This document shows, in pieces, positions 6,398 through 38,615 of a stretch of DNA of 44,078 bases; position 1 is the first letter of the stretch, and each line of letters opens with the position of its first letter. The notes beneath the pieces were generated by a model. That model saw only the letters and a list, made by a program, of their open reading frames with translations. It searched no databases and was not told the origin of the DNA. The DNA is from Anaerolinea sp. (GTDB lineage Bacteria > Chloroflexota > Anaerolineae > Anaerolineales > Villigracilaceae), in NCBI GenBank assembly GCA_020723805.1, contig DYID01000030.1:1-44078 (forward strand). Reading direction: 5' to 3'. The translations under genes were made by a program, and so were the position numbers.

Positions 6398-6570
6398 CTA
6401 TTGAGAAGTATTTTGTATTGCAAAATCAGAACGCACAGCGTATTTGTATATACATTTCTTCTGTAACCTTTCAATAATGAAAGGGTCTAGTATTTACCTT
6501 ACAATGTTGAAAGGTTTCGTGTTGCGCCGTGAATGTGCCAAAAATAATTTATGAAGAGGCAAGAAACAAA

Positions 6571-8679
6571 ATGAAAAAAATATTCTCAGCTTTATGTGCT
6601 TTTGTTTTGTTCTCAATGCTTATATTACCTAAATACGTAAGTGCTGCTACACTACAAACGAATGTGGAATTCAATGCAACAGCGACAGTTCGTTACAGCG
6701 ACTGGTTGGATGGGTCCAACAGCACGCTGGATATCCATGTCAGTGATTTGCCGGAAAATGTAGAGTTTTCGAACGGTGTGTATTCCGGCTGGTGCATCCA
6801 ACCAAGAATGACAGGGTTGTTGCATGGCGAATCTGCGGTCATTTATTCCAGCCTAAGCAGTGCATTGCCTTCCGATCTGGCATCATTGCCATGGAACAAG
6901 ATTAATTACGTGCTGAACCACAAGGTGCGCGGCGAGGGGAAGAGCGACCTTGAATTTTTCAAAGATGTTCAAACAGCCATCTGGTTGTTGTTAGGCGACG
7001 ACGACCCGGAATTTGGCATCAGCCCGGAAGCGCAGAAAATGGTGGATGATGCCAATGCAAATGCCGGATACATACCGGGAGATGGAGACATTGTTGCTTT
7101 TATTGTTTATTCCGATGGCATAAGCCTAACAAAAGACGATTTTGTGCAGGAAGTAATCATCGAGGTTGTTCTGCATCTGCCTCCTACTGAAACTCCCACC
7201 CCAACTGCGACATTAACCATCACGCCTACATCCACAACTTCCACCCCAACCGAAACTGTCACAACAACTCCGTCTCCTACGGAAACTGTCACCATGACAC
7301 CATCCCCGACAGAGACCGTGCCTCCAACTTCCACATCACCGACACCTACTGAAACTTTAACCATTACATCCACATCCACATTTACGCCGACGGTTACGCC
7401 AACATCCACATTCACACCCACCCCCACGTTAACCGGCACCCCTGTGTGTGTACCTACGGTTGTGAGGGCGGATTTCAGCCGCGTGGCGGCAGGGCAATCC
7501 GTGGAGGGCTGGGATGTGGTAGCGCCGGGGCTGAACATTGATGCGAAAGGGACAGCGGTCAGTCTGCGGGCTGGGTTGGATCCAAGAGCCTATGGTGCAC
7601 CCAATGATGCTCCTACTGGGAATGCGGGATTGTCTGCCGGCGGAGGTTTCAGTGACATTCCCACACAGTCTGCACTGCAAGCGCATTTATACACCTTCAC
7701 CTTTGCGCCGGGCACATCAGTGAGCAACTTTACACTCCATATGTTGGACTATGGGGACTGGAACGTGGTCAGCAGTACTTCGCACTATGTCAGCCTGACT
7801 GCCTACAATGCGAATGGGGTAGTGGTGGCAAAACAAGAATTGAGTTTTACGACACCGGCAGTCGGTCTGCCTCGTTCTTCGGATAAATATGGAGACTTAT
7901 GGTTTACGGGGGATGCGGTCACGGCTTTGCCGGGGCAGCCGGGCAACTGGACATGGAATGTGTCGGGCAGCGGGATTGTGAGGGTAGTGTTGGAATTCGG
8001 CGCAGGACACGACCCCAATGTCGCTTTCGATACCCTGACGTTTACTACGGAGTGCCCGCAGGCTTGTGTGTCCACAACGGCGAGGGCAGATTTCAGCCGC
8101 GTGGCAGCAGGGCAATCCGTGGAGGGCTGGGATGTGGTAGCGCCGGGGCTGAACATTGATGCGAAAGGGACAGCGGTCAGTCTGCGGGCTGGGTTGGATC
8201 CAAGAGCCTATGGTGCACCCAATGATGCTCCTACTGGGAATGCGGGATTGTCTGCCGGCGGAGGTTTCAGTGACATTCCCACACAGTCTGCACTGCAAGC
8301 GCATTTATACACCTTCACCTTTGCGCCGGGCACATCAGTGAGCAACTTTACACTCCATATGTTGGACTATGGGGACTGGAACGTGGTCAGCAGTACTTCG
8401 CACTATGTCAGCCTGACTGCCTACAATGCGAATGGGGTAGTGGTGGCAAAACAAGAATTGAGTTTTACGACACCGGCAGTCGGTCTGCCTCGTTCTTCGG
8501 ATAAATATGGAGACTTATGGTTTACGGGGGATGCGGTCACGGCTTTGCCGGGGCAGCCGGGCAACTGGACATGGAATGTGTCGGGCAGCGGGATTGTGAG
8601 GGTAGTGTTGGAATTCGGCGCAGGACACGACCCCAATGTCGCTTTCGATACCCTGACGTTTACTACGGAGTGCCCGTAA
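6571..8679 (+). CDS. Secreted protein with probable Cys-Gln thioester domain and two near-identical C-terminal domains
   Basis: The preferred start is ATG 6571, which gives a clean signal peptide (MKKIFSALCAF to VSAA) and has a GAGG upstream; an in-frame ATG at 6529 is possible. The product is about 702 aa. Residues 30-200 contain GWCIQP (Cys75) and DVQTAIWLLL (Gln134). The latter fits the hydrophobic-QxA-hydrophobic-W motif of thioester domains, known from Gram-positive surface adhesins that bind hosts covalently. Residues 205-290 are a Thr/Pro-rich linker. Residues 291-496 and 497-702 are two copies of a 206-aa beta-rich domain, each beginning near a Cys and ending TECP. No cell-wall sorting motif is seen. 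An adhesin-like role is inferred. A 618-bp DNA duplication underlies the two copies. Confidence 0.85.
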   Translation: MKKIFSALCAFVLFSMLILPKYVSAATLQTNVEFNATATVRYSDWLDGSNSTLDIHVSDLPENVEFSNGVYSGWCIQPRMTGLLHGESAVIYSSLSSALPSDLASLPWNKINYVLNHKVRGEGKSDLEFFKDVQTAIWLLLGDDDPEFGISPEAQKMVDDANANAGYIPGDGDIVAFIVYSDGISLTKDDFVQEVIIEVVLHLPPTETPTPTATLTITPTSTTSTPTETVTTTPSPTETVTMTPSPTETVPPTSTSPTPTETLTITSTSTFTPTVTPTSTFTPTPTLTGTPVCVPTVVRADFSRVAAGQSVEGWDVVAPGLNIDAKGTAVSLRAGLDPRAYGAPNDAPTGNAGLSAGGGFSDIPTQSALQAHLYTFTFAPGTSVSNFTLHMLDYGDWNVVSSTSHYVSLTAYNANGVVVAKQELSFTTPAVGLPRSSDKYGDLWFTGDAVTALPGQPGNWTWNVSGSGIVRVVLEFGAGHDPNVAFDTLTFTTECPQACVSTTARADFSRVAAGQSVEGWDVVAPGLNIDAKGTAVSLRAGLDPRAYGAPNDAPTGNAGLSAGGGFSDIPTQSALQAHLYTFTFAPGTSVSNFTLHMLDYGDWNVVSSTSHYVSLTAYNANGVVVAKQELSFTTPAVGLPRSSDKYGDLWFTGDAVTALPGQPGNWTWNVSGSGIVRVVLEFGAGHDPNVAFDTLTFTTECP
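7466..8676 (+). repeat. Direct tandem duplication, 618-bp offset
   Basis: Bases 7466-8058 recur at 8084-8676. Only about two substitutions are visible, both near the start of the unit; the rest reads identical by eye. The duplication is in frame (206 codons), so it is either very recent or kept uniform by recombination. Confidence 0.95.
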
Positions 8680-8759: not shown

Positions 8760-9122
8760 TTACTCCGGGTCGTTTTCGTCGGTGTCGTCCTCCCCCGTGT
8801 CGAATTCGTATTCCACCTTTTCGCCATCCAGATACACCCACAGCAGGAGGACATGCCCTTCCGGGGTTTCGACGTTGCGTGCCGCCAATATGGGAGCGGA
8901 TTGTTCCATACCCATGTCGTTGCGGTAATGCAGGTGGATGGGAGACTTTGCCTTCCAGGCGCGGTAGCAGCGTTCCACAAGCGCGGGTCCGTTGAAAGTC
9001 CGCAGGCGCGTCAGCGCCGGGACCGATAAGGCGGCGCTTTCGTTCAACCCCAGCGCCCAGCCATCGTTGACCGCTTCGAACACGGGGGGAGGTCCTTCGA
9101 TAATAGTGATTCTATCGTCCAT
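8760..9122 (-). CDS. Conserved-looking small protein of unknown function
   Basis: This is a 120-aa acidic protein (start MDDRITIIEGPPPVFEAVN, end GEDDTDENDPE) with no signal peptide or membrane segment. I do not recognise a family. The middle contains ALTRLRTFNGPALVERCYRAW and the C-terminal half alternates hydrophobic residues as in beta strands (HVLLLWVYLDGE). The ATG at 9122 lies 10 bases after a possible -10 box (TATATT, minus strand 9138-9133), suggesting a leaderless transcript. It is divergent from the kinase gene starting at 9259 and shares its terminator with the thioester-protein gene. Sharp gene ends and an ordinary composition support it as real. Confidence 0.7.
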   Translation of the reverse strand: MDDRITIIEGPPPVFEAVNDGWALGLNESAALSVPALTRLRTFNGPALVERCYRAWKAKSPIHLHYRNDMGMEQSAPILAARNVETPEGHVLLLWVYLDGEKVEYEFDTGEDDTDENDPE

Positions 9123-9221
9123 AGTGACCGAGAATATACCACAAAAGATGCCGAGGAGTCATTGCGAGTCCGTTAGTCTTAAAGTACCCCGCCCCGGCAA
9201 TCAACCTGTCATTGTAATTTC

Positions 9222-9250
9222 TTGCATTCCATCTTTTCGATGGGTATACT
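9222..9250 (+). promoter_or_regulatory. Promoter for the kinase gene, leaderless
   Basis: TTGCAT (9222-9227) and TATACT (9245-9250) are separated by 17 bp. The ATG of the kinase gene is at 9259, only 8 bases after the -10 box, so transcription should begin at or next to the start codon. Confidence 0.7.
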
Positions 9251-9258
9251 TGCGCATT

Positions 9259-11388
9259 ATGACACCGGAAAAGATTGGGCGCTACGAAATCAGGGCGGAA
9301 TTGGGACGCGGCGGCATGGCAACCGTCTATCACGGCTACGACCCGCGCTTCGAACGTGAAGTGGCGGTCAAAGTTCTGCCCCCCGAGCTCCTGCATTCGG
9401 ACCCGCAATTCAAACTGCGCTTCGAACGCGAGGCGAAGATCATCGCCCAGTTAGAGCATCCCTCCATCGTGCCAGTCTATGATGTGGGGGACGAAAACGG
9501 TCAGCCTTACTTCGTCATGCGGTATATGAACGGCGGCTCGCTGGCGGAACGCATCAAGCAGCGAGTGATGTCGGTGGAGGAAGCCGCTAAAATCCTCGGG
9601 CAGATCGCCCCCGGACTGGACGAGGCGCACAGCAAAGGCATCGTCCACCGCGACTTGAAGCCCAGCAACATCCTCTTCGACTCCAAAGGGACGCCCTACA
9701 TCTCCGATTTTGGCATCGCCAAGTTGTCGCAGGCACAGGCGAGCAGTGTCACCGGCAGCGCCATCATCGGCACGCCCGCCTACATGGCGCCCGAACAAGC
9801 CGCCGGCGAAGCCGTGGACGGACGTTCGGACATCTATGCCCTGGGCATCATCCTTTTCGAGATGTTGACCGGGCGCCAGCCCTACGAAGCCGACACGCCC
9901 ATGGGGGTGGCAATCAAACACATTACCGAGCCGGTGCCGCACATCCTGGAAGCCAACCCCAACCTGCCGCCCGAGGTGGACGCCATCATCCAAAAGGCAA
10001 TGGCGAAGCGCAAGGAAGACCGCTTTGCCACCGCCATGGAACTGGTGGATGCCTTGCGCATGGTCGGGTCCACCGCTGCGACGCAGTTGCGCACCGTCAA
10101 AGTTGCGCCCAAGACGGTGGCTACCGCCGAGAAAGCCGCCGAAAAAGTTGCCGCGCCAGCCGCTCGAAGACCGTTGGGCATCTGGCTGATTCTCGTCCCC
10201 GTTCTTTTGCTGGGAATGCTTGGGGGAGGCTATGCCTTGTTGAGTCGTATCAACCGTCCCGTAGAGACAGAGGCGCCGGTCGTCATCCCCACGTGGACTA
10301 CTGTTCCACCATCCTCCACATCCCCTATTCCCACCCTCGAACCGACCAAGGAAGCGCCGGTTCTTATTGTCCCCACCGATACCCCGCCTCTTTCCACGCC
10401 AACGCCGGCACCGCCCAAGATTCCTGTCATCGGCGGCGCGGATAAGATCGCCTTCGTCGCCAACAACGAAATCTGGCTGATGAATGTGGACGGCTCGGGC
10501 TTGGAGCAGATCACCTTCGACGGCGCCGTCAAAACCGACCTGCAATGGGTGGGTCCCGATTACCGTTACCTGCTTTTCATCAGCGGAAAAATCGTCAAAT
10601 ACTACGACAGCCAGAGCGGCGCTGTGGATACGCTGGTCAACTTCCCCTCGGAAGTTTCGGTGGACGCATTTCAGGTTTCGCACGATGGCAAGCAGGTGAT
10701 GATTGCCATGAGCAACAACATTTTTGTAGTGCCATTCGACATTGCGGCGCTCAAACCGGTGACCAACCGGCGGCAACTTGCCCAACTGAAGGACAGTTGT
10801 CTCGTTCAACAGGTGCCGAAGACGTACACCATTGCCCGCGTGCGCGAAGCGCGCTGGTCGTGGGACGATAAACTGGTGGCATGGCTCTTTACCGGCAACG
10901 ATGCCGTCAACCCCAACCTGCAAGCCGAACAGGTGAGCGTGCTCGATATTTCAGCCTGCAAGCCGGAACTGATTGACCAGAAAGACAACTTCCCCGGTAC
11001 GCGCTTTGTCCCCTCGGGGTATCAATCGCGCGAAATCCCCGATTTCGACTGGGACGGATACGAACTGTTTGCCTTCAACACTTCGCGGCGCAACAATGGT
11101 TGGGGCGAGCTTCACATCTACAACTGGAAACTTTACAAGGGCGTTCATTACTCCCCGCTTGGTCCCTGCTGTTACCGCGATGCACGCTGGAGTCCGGACG
11201 GCACCTACCTTCTGTTTGCCTTCCAAGACCTTGCCCTGGGTCCCGATGCCAAAACCATGCTCTATTACGTGCCGGTCGGCGAATTAGGGGCAGGCGCAAA
11301 ATTCACCCCTCTGCCTTTGCCGCCCGATTTCTTCAAGAACCCGCGCGAAGCCCCGCAGCCTGCCTTGCGCCCTGCGATAACCCCCTGA
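9259..11388 (+). CDS. Transmembrane Ser/Thr protein kinase (PknB-like) with extracytoplasmic TolB-like propeller
   Basis: This is a 709-aa Hanks-type kinase. The ATG at 9259 was chosen because the kinase fold begins at once (KIGRYEIRAELGRGGM) and the promoter sits just upstream; a longer in-frame reading exists but has no support. Visible motifs are the glycine loop GRGGMATV, Lys38 in AVKVL, HRDLKPSN (Asp132), DFG (Asp150) and APEQ. Residues 270-305 are a basic juxtamembrane linker, 306-328 a membrane helix, and 335-400 a Pro/Thr-rich stalk. The outer part has WD40/TolB-like blades (ADKIAFVANNEIWLMNVDGSG, DARWSPDGTYLLF). The outer propeller may sense an extracellular ligand. Its 3' end overlaps the convergent pyrD gene by 56 bp. 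Likely partners are the PP2C and FHA proteins at 27.7-30.7 kb. Confidence 0.92.
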   Translation: MTPEKIGRYEIRAELGRGGMATVYHGYDPRFEREVAVKVLPPELLHSDPQFKLRFEREAKIIAQLEHPSIVPVYDVGDENGQPYFVMRYMNGGSLAERIKQRVMSVEEAAKILGQIAPGLDEAHSKGIVHRDLKPSNILFDSKGTPYISDFGIAKLSQAQASSVTGSAIIGTPAYMAPEQAAGEAVDGRSDIYALGIILFEMLTGRQPYEADTPMGVAIKHITEPVPHILEANPNLPPEVDAIIQKAMAKRKEDRFATAMELVDALRMVGSTAATQLRTVKVAPKTVATAEKAAEKVAAPAARRPLGIWLILVPVLLLGMLGGGYALLSRINRPVETEAPVVIPTWTTVPPSSTSPIPTLEPTKEAPVLIVPTDTPPLSTPTPAPPKIPVIGGADKIAFVANNEIWLMNVDGSGLEQITFDGAVKTDLQWVGPDYRYLLFISGKIVKYYDSQSGAVDTLVNFPSEVSVDAFQVSHDGKQVMIAMSNNIFVVPFDIAALKPVTNRRQLAQLKDSCLVQQVPKTYTIARVREARWSWDDKLVAWLFTGNDAVNPNLQAEQVSVLDISACKPELIDQKDNFPGTRFVPSGYQSREIPDFDWDGYELFAFNTSRRNNGWGELHIYNWKLYKGVHYSPLGPCCYRDARWSPDGTYLLFAFQDLALGPDAKTMLYYVPVGELGAGAKFTPLPLPPDFFKNPREAPQPALRPAITP

Positions 11389-33375: not shown

Positions 33376-34275
33376 TTACGATGTTATTGCCTGTCTCGCC
33401 AGCGCAATCGCGCCCAGCAGTCCGGCGCGGCTTCCCAAGCCGGGATGGACGATGAACTCGTCAATGTGGCGGGTTATGGCGGGCGATTGGACGTAGCCGT
33501 TCAAAATCTCCTGCACCTCGCGGCGGATGAGGGGAAGCAAGTCTTCGCGCCCGCCCACGCCGCCGCCGATGATGATGCGCTGAGGGGAAAAGGTGACGAT
33601 GTAGTTGACCAGCGCCAGAGCGATGTAGTGCGCCTCCAGCGCCCAGGCGGGATGATCGGGCGGGAGCGTTTCGGCGCGCTGACCCCAACGCTTCTCCAGC
33701 GCAGGACCCGATGCCAGCCCCTCGAAGCAGTCCTTGTGAAAGGGACAGGCGCCCTCGAACGGGTCGCGGACGCGGTCGTGCGGAATCAGGATATGACCCA
33801 TCTCAGGGTGGAGCAGCCCATGCAGGAGTTTGCCGTTTGCCATCATGCCGCCGCCGATGCCGGTGCCCACCGTCAGGTAGAGGAACGTGTCGAGTCCCTG
33901 CGCCGCGCCCCAGGTCCACTCGCCGAGCGCCGCGCCATTGACGTCGGTATCGAACGCGATGGGAAGGTCGAAGGCGGAACGAAGCGTCCCGACGATGTCG
34001 GCGTCCGTCCAGCCGGGCTTGGGGGTGGAGAGGATGCGTCCGTAGGTGGGTGAATCAGGATTCGCGTCGAGCGGACCGAACGAGGCAACGCCCAGAGCAG
34101 AGAGTCTGCCGAAGTCCCGTTCCGCTTCCTGGAAGAAGAGAAGGGCTCGTGTCAGCGTTTCTGCGGGGGTAGTGGTGGGGAAACGCTCTTCACGGCGAAT
34201 GTCGTCCGGCGCTGTTCCCACCGCGCAGAGGAATTTTGTCCCGCCGCCTTCGATACCGCCGAAGAGAGGTGTCAT
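33376..34275 (-). CDS. ROK-family sugar kinase, fructokinase-like
   Basis: This 299-aa protein has the ROK ATP-binding start [34 protein letters not shown] with the catalytic Asp, [13 protein letters not shown] and a zinc-binding [18 protein letters not shown]. These match Gram-positive ROK fructokinases, so phosphorylation of fructose or a similar hexose is likely. ATG 34275 was chosen because it overlaps the stop of the upstream lipoprotein gene as ATGA. guaA lies 54 bases upstream on the other side. Confidence 0.9.
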
Positions 34276-35504
34276 GGACCCCATTTTAATCGCTGAGCGT
34301 AGGGAATGAGAACCACATTGGGGCGCGAGTCGGTGTACACGATTTCCACCTGCCCGCCAACATAGACATCGCTAATCGGAGCGAAGGCAACGAGGACGAA
34401 ACTGGCGTCGGGCGCCCAGAGCGCTTCGTTCATGAGCTCGAACGTGTCGGGGCGCAGGACGGTTCGCCCGGTTACGCCGTCGGGAGCGGAGCGCACCAGC
34501 TGCATCGGCGCACGCTCGACGAATTCCTGCTCCGGGCGGAAGTTGACAAAGAAGTAATACAACTGACCGTCGGGGGCGAGGTAGGCATCGGAGGGGATGT
34601 TGTACGTGCCGTCGCCGGCTTCGCCCGGCAGGAGCGTGGTCACGTTGCCGGTGGATGCGTCCACACGCCACATGCCAGCCGTGAACATGCCCATGTAGGG
34701 AAACGCCGAATACAGGGCAGCGCTGTCGGCGGTCCAGTTGGGGTCGCCGCAGCAGATGACCGCGCCGTCTGCGCCGTTCAACCGCACCAGCGCGCCGCCG
34801 CTGGGGTAGTAAATGGCGGATGAACTGCCCTCGTAGTAGCCGAGCGAGATGAGCAATTTCTGCCCGTCGGGCGAGTATTTTTCGGGCCAGTACAGTTCGC
34901 GCGGGATGAGCAGTCCGCCGCCCGCGTCATCCCACAGGTCTTCGATGACAAGGTTGGAGACGCCCGTCTCCAGCGAATAGAAGTTCAAACCGCCCCTGCC
35001 GTAGGCAATGCTCCGCCCATCGGGAGAGAAGACCGGTGAGTTGATTCTTGTGAGGAAGGGATTGTTTTCGTCCACCTCGCCGCCGTCCAAGAGCATGCGC
35101 CTGCCCGAACCGTCTGCCTGAATCAGAATCATCTGATTGTTTGCCACATAGACGACACTGCCGTCCAGCGGCGAAACATCGTAAGAGCCGACCGAATCGG
35201 ACTCGAAGGTGATCTGGCGCGTCGTCACTCCGTCCCGTTCCATGCGAAAGACCTGGGAGAGGTTGGCGCTGTCGTTGCCGAGGTAGTACAGGCTGTGAGG
35301 GAGCAGGGAGGCGGGTTCGTCCGGCGCAGGGGTGATGCCCGCCGTCGGCGCATCCGGCGCCACTGCCGTGAGGGTGGAAGCGACGATGGTTGCCACCTGG
35401 TCGGGCGGGGAGGTCGCTTCGCCGCCCCCCAGCGGTGAATTGCACGCCAGCGCGGCGAGAGTCAGCGAAAGAAAGACACTGAAAAAACGCAATTTTTGAT
35501 TCAT
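34272..35504 (-). CDS. Lipoprotein with TolB/PD40-like beta-propeller
   Basis: This 410-aa protein has a lipoprotein signal with lipobox LTLAALAC (Cys21), then a Thr/Ala/Pro-rich spacer. The rest shows repeated propeller blades ([53 protein letters not shown]). It should be attached to the outer face of the cytoplasmic membrane. The ligand is unknown. It is translationally coupled to the downstream ROK kinase, so a role in sugar sensing or uptake is possible. Confidence 0.88.
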
Positions 35505-35590: not shown

Positions 35591-35854
35591 TTACACCTGC
35601 TCGAATCGTTCCACCGGCACGACGAACAGCGTGGCGCGCCGCTCGCCCGAAGGCAGGGGCGGCAGTTTGGCGCGAATCAACTCCAGGCAGGATTCCACGC
35701 GCTCATCCAGCACGCCCAGCAGAAGGGTCACGATGCCGCTCCGCAAAAAACCACCGGTGGACGCCACGCGCGTCACGCGGTACTTTTCGGCGGTCAGCGC
35801 CTGGGTCACTGCGTCGGCATCGTGGTCTTTGACAATCAGGATAATCATTTTCAT
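35591..35854 (-). CDS. Short PstA/DarA-like (DUF970) PII-superfamily protein
   Basis: This 87-aa protein has the PstA hallmark VTRVASTGGFLRSG and begins MKMIILIVKDHDADAVTQAL. PstA/DarA are trimeric cyclic-di-AMP receptors. Here the long B-loop is mostly missing (87 aa against about 109), and the Asn after the GGFL motif is replaced by Ile (SGIVT), so ligand binding may be altered or lost. It ends TLFVVPVERFEQV, as the family does. It is the last gene of the antiporter operon, 15 bases after its paralogue. Confidence 0.85.
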   Translation of the reverse strand: MKMIILIVKDHDADAVTQALTAEKYRVTRVASTGGFLRSGIVTLLLGVLDERVESCLELIRAKLPPLPSGERRATLFVVPVERFEQV

Positions 35855-35869
35855 GGTTCACGCTCCTCG

Positions 35870-36205
35870 CTACATCTCTTCGAAGTGTTCCACCGGCAAA
35901 GCAAAAATGGTGGCGCCCCCCACCGTGACCGGAACAGGCGTCGGCATGGGAAGCGGCGAACCCTCCAGCGGCAGGGTCAGATATTCGATGTGCTGTTTGC
36001 AGGTCTCTTGTAGTATCTTGATTGCCTGTTCTTCCATGCCTTTACGCAAACCGATTAACAGCGTCGCGTTGCGGCGTCCCAGAAAACCGCCCGCGCTGAA
36101 AAGATACACCACCGGCATCTTCAATCTTTCGAGGGCGCGGGTCGCCTCGTCGCGGTCCTGTTCCTGAACCACCGCCAGCATCAATAAACGAATTTGTTCA
36201 TTCAT
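35870..36205 (-). CDS. PstA/DarA-like cyclic-di-AMP receptor family protein
   Basis: This 111-aa protein is close in length to PstA. It has SAGGFLGRRNATLLIGL with the Asn conserved, and the family ending GGATIFALPVEHFEEM after a Pro-rich B-loop. Family knowledge points to cyclic-di-AMP binding; this is not tested for the lineage. The start overlaps the stop of the upstream PII-like gene as ATGA. Together with its neighbours it probably controls the antiporter. Confidence 0.88.
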   Translation of the reverse strand: MNEQIRLLMLAVVQEQDRDEATRALERLKMPVVYLFSAGGFLGRRNATLLIGLRKGMEEQAIKILQETCKQHIEYLTLPLEGSPLPMPTPVPVTVGGATIFALPVEHFEEM

Positions 36206-36561
36206 CGGTTCTCTCTCTTCTCCAGTCCGTATGCTTTTACCACCGGTAACACCAAAAGCACGCCGGTTTCATGGTCGCGCAGGTCGCCGACCACTCGTTG
36301 TGTGGCTTCGAGGATGTTGTCTATCATAGACTCATCTTCGGCAGTTGTAAAGACTGTACGGCTGAACGTTTGCGACAACTCGTAGAAATCCTCCAGAGAA
36401 GGCATCAAGGGAATATCGTCGCGCAATCCGCCTTTCAGCCGCAGGCGGCGCATGCCCGTGCTGAGCATCACCGTTGCGCGCTGGACTCCAGCCGCCTCCC
36501 AGGCTTCCAGCAAGGGATCGAGCAACTCGGGATTGTGCATGACAAACAGAATGAAGAACAT
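36202..36561 (-). CDS. PII-like protein next to antiporter
   Basis: This 119-aa protein has a ferredoxin-like pattern expected of PII-superfamily subunits: strand MFFILFVMHNPE, helix LLDPLLEAWEAAG, strand RATVMLSTGM, then a later helix and GVLLVLPVVKAYG. No classic PII uridylylation Tyr is obvious. The start codon shares one base with the antiporter stop (TGATG), so the two are made in step. A regulatory role for the antiporter is inferred. Confidence 0.7.
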   Translation of the reverse strand: MFFILFVMHNPELLDPLLEAWEAAGVQRATVMLSTGMRRLRLKGGLRDDIPLMPSLEDFYELSQTFSRTVFTTAEDESMIDNILEATQRVVGDLRDHETGVLLVLPVVKAYGLEKRENR

Positions 36562-37829
36562 CAGGCTTCCTCCTCTGACTCTGAACGATTTGACGCTTCA
36601 GGCTGGACCTCAGCCTGCTCAGCCTCCAACGGCTTTTTCTCCATCCCGTGCCTTTTTTGCGCAAACAGATACCGCAGGATGGGCGGCGTAATCAAGGTGG
36701 TGGCAAGTACCATCACAACCACCGCCGAAAATTCCTCATGAGGCAAAAGCCCCTGGCGAATCCCCACATCTGCCACAATCAACCCCACCTCGCCGCGCGA
36801 GATCATCCCTGCACCCAGGCGGAAGGCTTCCCGTTTGTCGAGCCCGCCCAGCCGCGCGCCCCAGCCGGCGCCCAGCCATTTGCCGATGACCGCCGCCAGG
36901 ATGATGACGATTGTCAGCAAAAGGGAATCCAGCCGAAATTCCCGCAAATTGATGGATAAGCCGATGTTCACAAAAAATACCGGCACGAATAAACCGTATG
37001 CCAGCGCATGTGCGCCGTTCTCGATTTGTTCCTTTTCCGGGCAGCGCCCCAGCATGAGCCCCGCCAAAAATGCGCCGGTAATCGCCGCCATGCCGCCTAG
37101 AAACTCCGCCGCGATGCCATAGATAAACATGACAATGAGCGAAACCGTCAACAGCCCCTGGCTGATGGGCAGTTTGGCGGTCTGCCGGATGATCCAGGGC
37201 AAACCCCACAGCCCAAGCAGGACCGAAAGGGCAAGGAACAATGCCATCCTCAGCAAAATCGCCAGAACATCCGCCGCCGTCTCACCGCCTCCTTGAATGC
37301 CCAGAAAGACGGAAAGAAACAGGATGATCAAAATATCGTCGAACACCGCGGCGCCCAGCAGGCTCAAACCGATGCGGCTGCGCAGAGCCTTCAATTCAAT
37401 CAGCGTTTGCGCAGAGATGCTGACGCTGGTCGCGCCAAGTGTCAGACCGAGGAAAAGAGCCGAGTTTGAATCCAGCCCAAACAGTGCGCCGGCACCCCAT
37501 CCCATCAACACCGGAAAGACCACTCCCCAAAAACCCGCCAGCGAAGCCACGTGCAGATTTTGCCGCATCTCGCTGAAGTGAAGTTCCAGCCCGGCGAGAA
37601 ACATGAGCAGAAGCACGCCAAACTCGGCAAACTCCGTGATCGTTTCCGCCATGCTGTGCTGGATGAACGGCAGAGCGAGCAGGTTGAGCAGCGAGGGACC
37701 CAGCACAATGCCCACGAGCAATTCGCCCAGCACGGAGGGTTGTCCGAGCCGCACGCTGATATAACCAGCCGTTTTTGCACAGAAGAGAATGACGGATACC
37801 AAAAAGGCAAGTTGAAGAAAGGCAGCCAT
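36561..37829 (-). CDS. CPA2-family cation/proton antiporter
   Basis: This 422-aa protein has about 12-13 membrane helices. The transport-site motif AAVFDDILIIL places two Asp at 164-165 (DD, usual for electrogenic exchangers). LGQPSVLGELLVGIVLGP and ISRGEVGLIVADVG are typical of the KefB/NapA-like group. It lacks a C-terminal RCK/TrkA domain and ends in an acidic tail. ATG 37829 was chosen over an upstream TTG. It is first in a four-gene operon with three PII-superfamily genes that could supply the missing regulatory function. Confidence 0.93.
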   Translation of the reverse strand: MAAFLQLAFLVSVILFCAKTAGYISVRLGQPSVLGELLVGIVLGPSLLNLLALPFIQHSMAETITEFAEFGVLLLMFLAGLELHFSEMRQNLHVASLAGFWGVVFPVLMGWGAGALFGLDSNSALFLGLTLGATSVSISAQTLIELKALRSRIGLSLLGAAVFDDILIILFLSVFLGIQGGGETAADVLAILLRMALFLALSVLLGLWGLPWIIRQTAKLPISQGLLTVSLIVMFIYGIAAEFLGGMAAITGAFLAGLMLGRCPEKEQIENGAHALAYGLFVPVFFVNIGLSINLREFRLDSLLLTIVIILAAVIGKWLGAGWGARLGGLDKREAFRLGAGMISRGEVGLIVADVGIRQGLLPHEEFSAVVVMVLATTLITPPILRYLFAQKRHGMEKKPLEAEQAEVQPEASNRSESEEEA

Positions 37830-37904: not shown

Positions 37905-38615
37905 TTACAGCGGCTGTTTGGACGGAATGCCCGGCTTGCGCGGATATTTGGGAGGCGTTGCCGCTACTTTTTCCACCACCACCAGGTAGCGGTCATCTGC
38001 CACGCCCGGCAGATGCACCGGAATCAACTGCTCCAATTTGCCGCCCAGCACTTTCATGGCGTTCTCAGCCGCCTGCGCTTCGGCGGGTCCGCTTTCGCCT
38101 TTTTGGGCAAGCATCCGTCCGCCGATTTTGAGCAGCGGAATGAGATACTCGCTCAGCACATTGAGATTCGCCACCGCGCGCGCCACCGCCCAGTCATACG
38201 CTTCGCGGTACTTGGGATTTTGTCCCAAGTCTTCCGCGCGTTTTTGAATGACCTCCACACCTTCCAGCCCCAGCACGCTGACAATGTGCTGACAGAACAT
38301 GGCTTTCTTGCCCACCGATTCCACCAGCGTCAGTTTCATGCTGGGGTAGAGAATTTTGAGGGGAATGCCCGGGAAACCGGCGCCCGTTCCCACGTCTATG
38401 AGACGATGCGGCGGGTTTGCCTTCCATGCCAGCACACACGAGAACGAATCCAGAAAGTGCTTGGTGCGGATCGAGTCCATGTCGCGGATGGCGGTCAGGT
38501 TGAACTTCTGGTTCCATTCCATCAGTTCCTTTTCGTAGGTGATGAGCGCCATCACCTGCCGCCCGGTCATGTGGATGTGAAATAGTTCCTGCGCTTCGCG
38601 GACGAGTTTTTCCAT
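37905..38615 (-). CDS. rsmG: 16S rRNA (guanine527-N7)-methyltransferase
   Basis: This 236-aa protein methylates G527 of 16S rRNA with S-adenosylmethionine. Motifs are HFLDSFSC, LIDVGTGAGFPGIPLKIL and RAVANLNVLSEYLIPLL. ATG 38615 lies 10 bases after a minus-strand TATAAT (38631-38626), implying a leaderless mRNA. The antiporter gene follows after 75 bases. Confidence 0.95.
   Translation of the reverse strand: MEKLVREAQELFHIHMTGRQVMALITYEKELMEWNQKFNLTAIRDMDSIRTKHFLDSFSCVLAWKANPPHRLIDVGTGAGFPGIPLKILYPSMKLTLVESVGKKAMFCQHIVSVLGLEGVEVIQKRAEDLGQNPKYREAYDWAVARAVANLNVLSEYLIPLLKIGGRMLAQKGESGPAEAQAAENAMKVLGGKLEQLIPVHLPGVADDRYLVVVEKVAATPPKYPRKPGIPSKQPL

Follow-up and report, generated by a model that had tools for sequence, protein, structure and literature searches.

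The closest described relatives of the proteins considered here are the PstA/DarA receptors (CdAMP_rec, PF06153) of S. aureus, Listeria, and B. subtilis. Each of these is a homotrimer encoded by one gene; its sites are complete, and no partner is known for it. In the parts of PMC4316997 available to us, the c-di-AMP site of S. aureus PstA is described as lying between monomers, where R26, T28, G47, and Q108 of one subunit meet F36, L37, N41, and F99 of its neighbor. The same parts report that the N41A, T28A, and GGFL-AAAA variants bind c-di-AMP poorly, with a Kd of 9.6 μM for N41A, and that the B′-loop (residues 68–92) is the likely effector contact (PMC4316997). As late as December 2025, the binding partners of PstA were still termed unknown in the available part of PMC12802241.

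Antiporters and PII-fold proteins have each been linked to ligand-dependent control elsewhere. CpaA is a CPA antiporter with a cytoplasmic c-di-AMP-binding RCK_C domain, according to the available part of PMC10243994. The present systems resemble it in that a CPA-type antiporter is tied to a (here putative) c-di-AMP-binding domain; CpaA, however, is a K+/H+ antiporter with an RCK_C domain of unrelated fold, whereas here a PstA-family module accompanies antiporters of NapA-like or CPA1 Na+/H+ type. KhtT-KhtU and CpeA/CpeB of Streptomyces are antiporters with a separate RCK_C subunit and thus offer a likeness in arrangement, a small ligand-binding protein acting in trans on an antiporter encoded alongside, but with another receptor fold and no split site. 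In GlnK-AmtB, SbtB-SbtA, and PII-NrtBCD, a PII-fold trimer controls a membrane transporter, the ligands of such proteins being mainly adenine nucleotides and 2-oxoglutarate; these trimers differ from the proteins described below in being homotrimers with complete sites. Mixed PII trimers do exist in E. coli GlnB-GlnK, but each subunit there can make complete sites, and mixing is not needed for ligand binding.

The two PF06153 proteins of the present locus, which we call F (full length) and S (short), share with PstA/DarA the sequence family, the GGFL T′-loop, and the residues of the interface site, and S is alike in modeled fold too. Unlike PstA/DarA, they make up two subunits with complementary half-sites and are encoded beside, or in relatives fused to, antiporters.

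The four-gene locus

The window, by which we mean the whole stretch of 44,078 nucleotides that was analyzed, comes from a 3.69-Mb assembly whose nearest named relatives are Chloroflexi/Anaerolineales MAGs, and a genome search found no PF06153 genes in that assembly other than the two of the window. The genes that concern us are the following.

37905..38615, minus strand: rsmG, 16S rRNA methyltransferase (PF02527, 164.3 bits)
36561..37829, minus strand: CPA2 antiporter, NapA-like, with an AAVFDDI (Asp-Asp) motif and without an RCK domain, probably Na+/H+ (PF00999, 219.8 bits)
36202..36561, minus strand: ORF2, PII-like protein whose T-loop region is long, of an antiporter-associated family (from its model fold and the neighborhoods of its homologues)
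35870..36205, minus strand: ORF3, the F subunit, full-length PstA/DarA-type protein with a B′-loop (PF06153, 69.1 bits)
35591..35854, minus strand: ORF4, the S subunit, 87 aa, shortened PstA/DarA-type protein without a B′-loop (PF06153, 77.4 bits)

An earlier note on this DNA had proposed an RCK-less CPA2 antiporter followed by a PII-like gene and two PstA/DarA-like genes, and all four genes were confirmed on the minus strand. The coupling by overlapping stop and start codons that it described holds for the antiporter-ORF2 junction (TGATG) and the ORF2-ORF3 junction (ATGA) but not for the last one, where ORF4 starts 15 nt past the ORF3 stop and is preceded by an AGGAG-like site. The same four-gene order recurs at 18 further distinct loci, in one of which the antiporter is divided between two frames, so the arrangement in the window is not due to chance, and the lack of a conserved neighborhood that the note had named as fatal to its reading was not observed. 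The rsmG gene lies upstream of the antiporter and runs in the same direction, 75 nt apart; we do not claim it as a member of the system. No Rfam family reached its gathering score in the entire window, and no riboswitch was thus found ahead of the operon. Promoter predictions (2 versus 1.6 in shuffled sequences) and terminator predictions (9 versus 5.2, sd 2.5) were excluded as evidence.

PF00999 is the sole Pfam family matched by the antiporter at E ≤ 1, and in the absence at that threshold of any RCK, TrkA, or RCK_C (TrkA_C) domain we rejected RCK control of this protein. Its closest solved structure is NapA (4bwz, E 6.7e-42), with KefC far behind (1.2e-18), and it carries both the Na_H_Exchanger domain and the Asp-Asp motif of NapA-type CPA2 proteins. 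Because this motif marks Na+/H+ exchangers, the window antiporter is, judged by its sequence, probably one as well. The earlier note had pointed to CPA-type transporters under RCK_C control; the nearest structure here is that of a Na+/H+ antiporter and not of a K+ exporter of the RCK_C-controlled kind. The Asp-Asp pair is present in 22 of the 24 CPA2 ORFs of the locus set, in one case (L168) outside the stretch scanned for the AAVFDDI-type pattern; the remaining two ORFs are frame-split halves of a single gene (L161:5288-6629), which occupies two overlapping frames, is either broken or misassembled, and is followed by intact, open ORF2-, F-, and S-type frames. One other PF00999 protein was found in the window's genome (G000:C16:4178-5569), and the 504-aa open frame in which it lies also holds a TrkA_C match. 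Given this apparent sharing of a frame with an RCK_C domain, two antiporters of a single genome may each be served by a different receptor fold.

Both PstA/DarA-like proteins exceed the PF06153 gathering score of 27, and both miss the 140-bit cut-off of the NCBIfam DarA equivalog, at 74.3 and 76.5 bits, for which reason we do not file them as DarA orthologues. As had been noted, one is full length with a GGFL...N region: the match to F covers positions 3–108 of 109, and its T′-loop reads GGFLGRRN. The other is indeed shortened with its Asn lost, the match to S covering positions 1–62 only and the loop reading GGFLRSGI, with Ile in place of Asn. The model of S (pLDDT 91.4) has a PII fold, with c-di-AMP-bound PstA (4rww) as best fold match; F matches 4rww by sequence at E 2.6e-14.

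ORF2 is a different kind of protein. It has no Pfam or NCBIfam match at E ≤ 1 and fails the gathering score of classical PII proteins (PF00543), which one of seven homologues tested passes (27.5 versus 25 bits). Its AlphaFold model, built from 11 sequences (pLDDT 78.3, with low confidence in the T-loop region), has a PII fold: PII proteins head both the Foldseek and the VIA-align 2 lists, with Z up to 12.8 and an rmsd of 2.6 over 83 residues. Chains of PII-transporter complexes appear among the fold matches of both S and ORF2. In a sample of 301 genomes from the phylum, 33 ORF2 relatives occur in 28 genomes. Twenty of the 33 surrounding stretches were fetched (L209–L228), each of at most 8.4 kb, their sources extending from the window's own family to other classes. 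Fourteen adjoin a CPA2 antiporter, two a CitMHS-type transporter, and three a likely Na+/Ca2+ exchanger (an assignment Pfam-tested in L221 alone); one, on a short contig, has no such transporter. ORF2 homologues stand beside antiporters within the taxonomic order of the window and also beyond it, in further orders and classes. None of these 20 stretches showed a PF06153-type gene. ORF2 thus seems to represent a PII-like family of its own that is associated with antiporters, and we rejected it as a third c-di-AMP receptor, since it lacks a PF06153 match and no such gene was detected in the stretches around its homologues. Of the three PII-superfamily proteins of the earlier note, S and ORF2 have the PII fold in their models and F resembles PstA in sequence, but ORF2 belongs to a family separate from the receptors. 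The family lies mostly under the Pfam cut-off and spans several Chloroflexota classes, with CPA2, CitMHS-type, and Na+/Ca2+-exchanger-type genes as neighbors. In one member (L225:3443-4438), beside a CitMHS-type transporter, the PII domain runs on into two CBS repeats, suggesting a second nucleotide input.

Several other genes near F-S pairs, or elsewhere in the window, deserve mention as observations. Of 55 mapped loci, 25 encode an MGH1-like glycoside hydrolase near the pair and 23 a PD40-type protein there, the family having been tested on one member in each case; examples of such recurrent clusters are window positions 34272-35504 and L044:2482-4848. Three loci (L036, L043, and L048) have genes resembling, by eye, a DNA cytosine methyltransferase and a Vsr-type endonuclease between the glycoside hydrolase-like gene and the pair. 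Farther off in the window, a 716-aa open frame (6529-8679) without a Pfam match at E ≤ 1e-5 adjoins a protein-kinase-type gene (8992-11388).

Half-sites of F and S

PF06153 was found in 51 of the 61 genomes of the relatives set (60 relatives plus the window's own genome); in nearly every case F and S lie next to each other as a pair. Loci were drawn from 54 fetched stretches and the best 80 of 134 confirmed named stretches, two overlapping sets from which identical F sequences were removed to leave 116 distinct F loci. As controls we used 40 canonical DarA loci, picked among the best-scoring matches in the phylum's other orders and classes. In all, 275 distinct PF06153 domains were aligned to S. 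aureus PstA, after one F truncated at a contig end (L066) had been dropped. We call R26, T28, G47, and Q108 half A (scored strictly as R26, T28, and G47) and F36, L37, N41, and F99 half B. Counts are given below for canonical proteins, unfused F, F fused to an antiporter, and S, in that order.

R26: 32/40, 1/100, 1/16, 110/114
T28: 40/40, 55/100, 10/16, 114/114
N41: 40/40, 93/100, 14/16, 23/114
Strict half A: 28/40, 0/100, 1/16, 110/114
Strict half B: 33/40, 91/100, 14/16, 13/114
Both strict halves in one protein: 23/40, 0/100, 0/16, 12/114
Relaxed site in one protein: 36/40, 48/100, 7/16, 23/114

The window pair follows the same division. F has half B intact and has lost the side chains of half A (P26, V28, and E108), whereas S has half A intact, including Q108, and Ile at position 41; neither protein holds a complete site. 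More widely, position 26 is Pro or Ser in 80 of 100 unfused F proteins, and position 108 is Gln in 107 of 114 S proteins, Glu (58/100) or Gln (39/100) in unfused F, Glu in 14 of 16 fused F, and mostly Arg (68%) in canonical Chloroflexota proteins. GGA is retained in all 100 unfused and 14 of 16 fused F proteins. The B′-loop is lost in S, with a median of 10 residues between positions 63 and 96 compared with 29 in F and 32 in canonical proteins, and its stem residues R67 and GG94-95 are gone as well. From these residue tallies and loop lengths, half B and the output loop reside in F, and half A resides in S, which has no output loop. Decay of S into a fragment was rejected, as T28, G47, and T43 are kept in 113–114 of 114 proteins.

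Where a complete site could form was scored in 113 distinct F-S pairs. A strict site arises at S-to-F only in 92 pairs, at S-to-F and S-to-S in 6, at S-to-S only in 6, and nowhere in 9; it arises in none of the 113 at F-to-F or F-to-S. All eight scored PstA contact residues are in place at the S-to-F interface of 98 pairs. In a tree of 121 chosen rows, a single branch (SH-aLRT 90) separates the 40 S rows from the rest, and F and fused F group together bar one divergent row, the latter grouping being without support. Taken with the interface counts, this grouping makes the half-site split look old and maintained. Most pairs probably inherit it from a single event, which makes the 113 pairs dependent by descent, and the counts show conservation rather than repeated origin. 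An apparent exchange of N41 between partners was dropped as proof: seven of the eight pairs whose F lacks N41 have an S that keeps it (Fisher p 3e-5), but these reduce to three losses on the tree, where the association is not significant.

The earlier idea of a mixed trimer gains from the complementary half-sites, but it is weakened by a lax rule (T28, G or A at 47, and N41) under which 55 of 116 F proteins look self-sufficient. The strict criterion is harsh, since only the 23 of 40 canonical proteins tabulated above satisfy it. It is unlikely, in our judgment, that an S homotrimer alone is the c-di-AMP receptor and F a paralogue that has lost ligand sensing and diverged into a scaffold or effector binder. 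S does retain R26, T28, G47, and mostly GGFL, a dozen S proteins have both strict halves, and six pairs have their sole complete site at S-to-S. However, F keeps exactly the T′-loop half, N41 and GGA included, which a nonsensing paralogue need not do, and N41 is absent in 91 of 114 S proteins, whereas its replacement in PstA weakened binding to the Kd quoted above (the available part of PMC4316997).

A still less likely alternative is that the pair has switched to another nucleotide or to no ligand and is a PstA-derived antiporter regulator rather than a c-di-AMP receptor. PII-fold proteins bind many ligands, the window proteins fall far under the DarA equivalog cut-off, and the frequent Glu108 and Pro or Ser at position 26 of F would fit such a change; against it stand the 98 complete S-to-F contact sets and a diadenylate cyclase in 59 of the 61 genomes searched. 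The two genomes in which no cyclase was detected both carry PF06153. The window's own genome has one cyclase, with an N-terminal region that shows a weak likeness to CdaA_N but scores under the family cut-off; the earlier note had taken the lack of such an enzyme as evidence against its reading.

Transporter linkage and fusions

With partners counted by ORF ends, 57 of the 116 F loci have F fused to (16) or directly behind (41) an antiporter or CitMHS-type gene. The antiporter is CPA2 with an ORF2-like gene in 19 loci, CPA2 alone in 3, CPA1 with F fused to its C terminus in 16, and CPA1 unfused in 5; a CitMHS-type transporter is the partner in 14, the one protein tested from that class matching Pfam CitMHS and, more weakly, ArsB and MamN. 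Two further loci (L060 and L103) are second pairs behind a fused pair, 55 have no transporter of these kinds, and 2 end at a contig end. By a hand count, at least one F is transporter-linked in 28 of the 51 genomes that bear PF06153. S directly follows F in 111 of 116 loci, among them 14 of the 16 with a fusion; in the other two fused cases, S lies farther along the same cluster (L039) or alone on another contig (G060).

The fusions look real and not like read-through artifacts. The two CPA1-F proteins tested carry both PF00999 and PF06153 and pass the Na+/H+ antiporter model TIGR00831 (321.3 and 336.8 versus 279.6 bits), and the linker between antiporter profile and F measures 112–114 residues in 15 of 16 fusions. 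The exception, L052, has a 142-residue linker with an internal Met, and its F is nested within an unfused F clade, which suggests a separate, later fusion.

Among the 40 canonical controls, no CPA1, CPA2, CitMHS-type, or ORF2-type gene was found at E ≤ 1e-4 within stretches of at most 5 kb per side, some shortened by contig ends. Five control loci (L189, L192, L195, L204, and L208) have a full and short PF06153 pair with no nearby antiporter; the full member keeps R26 and T28, the short member keeps N41, and the site is not split. These pairs may represent an earlier stage of the same path.

The earlier proposal that the receptors act in trans on the antiporter is favored by the fusions and by the three partner types (CPA1, CPA2, and CitMHS-type), but 55 of the 116 F loci have no such neighbor. 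It is highly improbable that F and S merely belong to a conserved neighborhood of glycoside-hydrolase-like and PD40-type genes that took up antiporters by insertion and has no functional link to them, as the transporterless loci, many of which keep the same flanking genes in the first mapped set, might suggest, given the covalent fusions with their near-constant linker, the variety of transporters, the overlapping genes of the window type, and the unlinked controls.

A proposed split-site receptor

On balance, we favor the reading that F and S together make a c-di-AMP receptor of PstA/DarA descent that is heteromeric and serves Na+/H+ antiporters specifically. Comparative support from sequence for the functional link and for the mixed oligomer is strong, because it comes from the fusions, the three partner types, the complementary half-sites, and the cyclases of these genomes alike. 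F and S would form a trimeric ring, as known PstA does, in which S would give the adenine-reading half of the site and F the T′-loop half together with the long B′-loop thought to touch effectors. With the half-sites on separate subunits, ligand would bind only where S meets F in the right order, and the mixed trimer would itself be the sensor. Binding of c-di-AMP, the putative ligand, at S-to-F could order the T′- and B′-loops of F and so alter a predicted contact between F and the antiporter, to which F would deliver the output.

We infer that the antiporters are under control at all, presumably with Na+ as their substrate. In the window, F and S would act in trans on the CPA2 antiporter, and ORF2 may be a second, independent PII-like regulator or input of the same protein. 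In relatives with a fusion, F sits covalently on the CPA1 C terminus and only S is free. CPA antiporters are dimers, and we speculate that the two tethered F domains of a dimer and one free S complete the trimer, which would explain why every genome or cluster seen to have a fused antiporter also had the short paralogue.

A more demanding version, which we put forward tentatively and think possible but doubtful, is an obligate split-site receptor with one c-di-AMP site per trimer, at S-to-F, and a ring closed by S. In that version, Na+/H+ antiporters would be the first effectors known for PstA/DarA proteins, and c-di-AMP would control Na+ and pH homeostasis in Anaerolineae.

The PstA/DarA family itself is known; a split form of the receptor, coupled to Na+/H+ antiporters, seems to be new. 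Among the papers listed by literature searches that covered few subscription papers and preprints, we recognized none that ties proteins of PstA/DarA type to antiporters through a fusion or through gene order. To our knowledge there has been little work on c-di-AMP in the phylum Chloroflexota, of which the bacteria considered here are a poorly studied group. The natural fusions to Na+/H+ antiporters provide a concrete candidate effector for a widespread receptor, and antiporter neighborhood and fusion together suggest what these receptors control. If this is true, the complementary half-sites would represent a PII-fold sensor turned obligate heteromer, and control by c-di-AMP, so far a matter of K+ and osmolyte transport, would come to include sodium/proton exchange.
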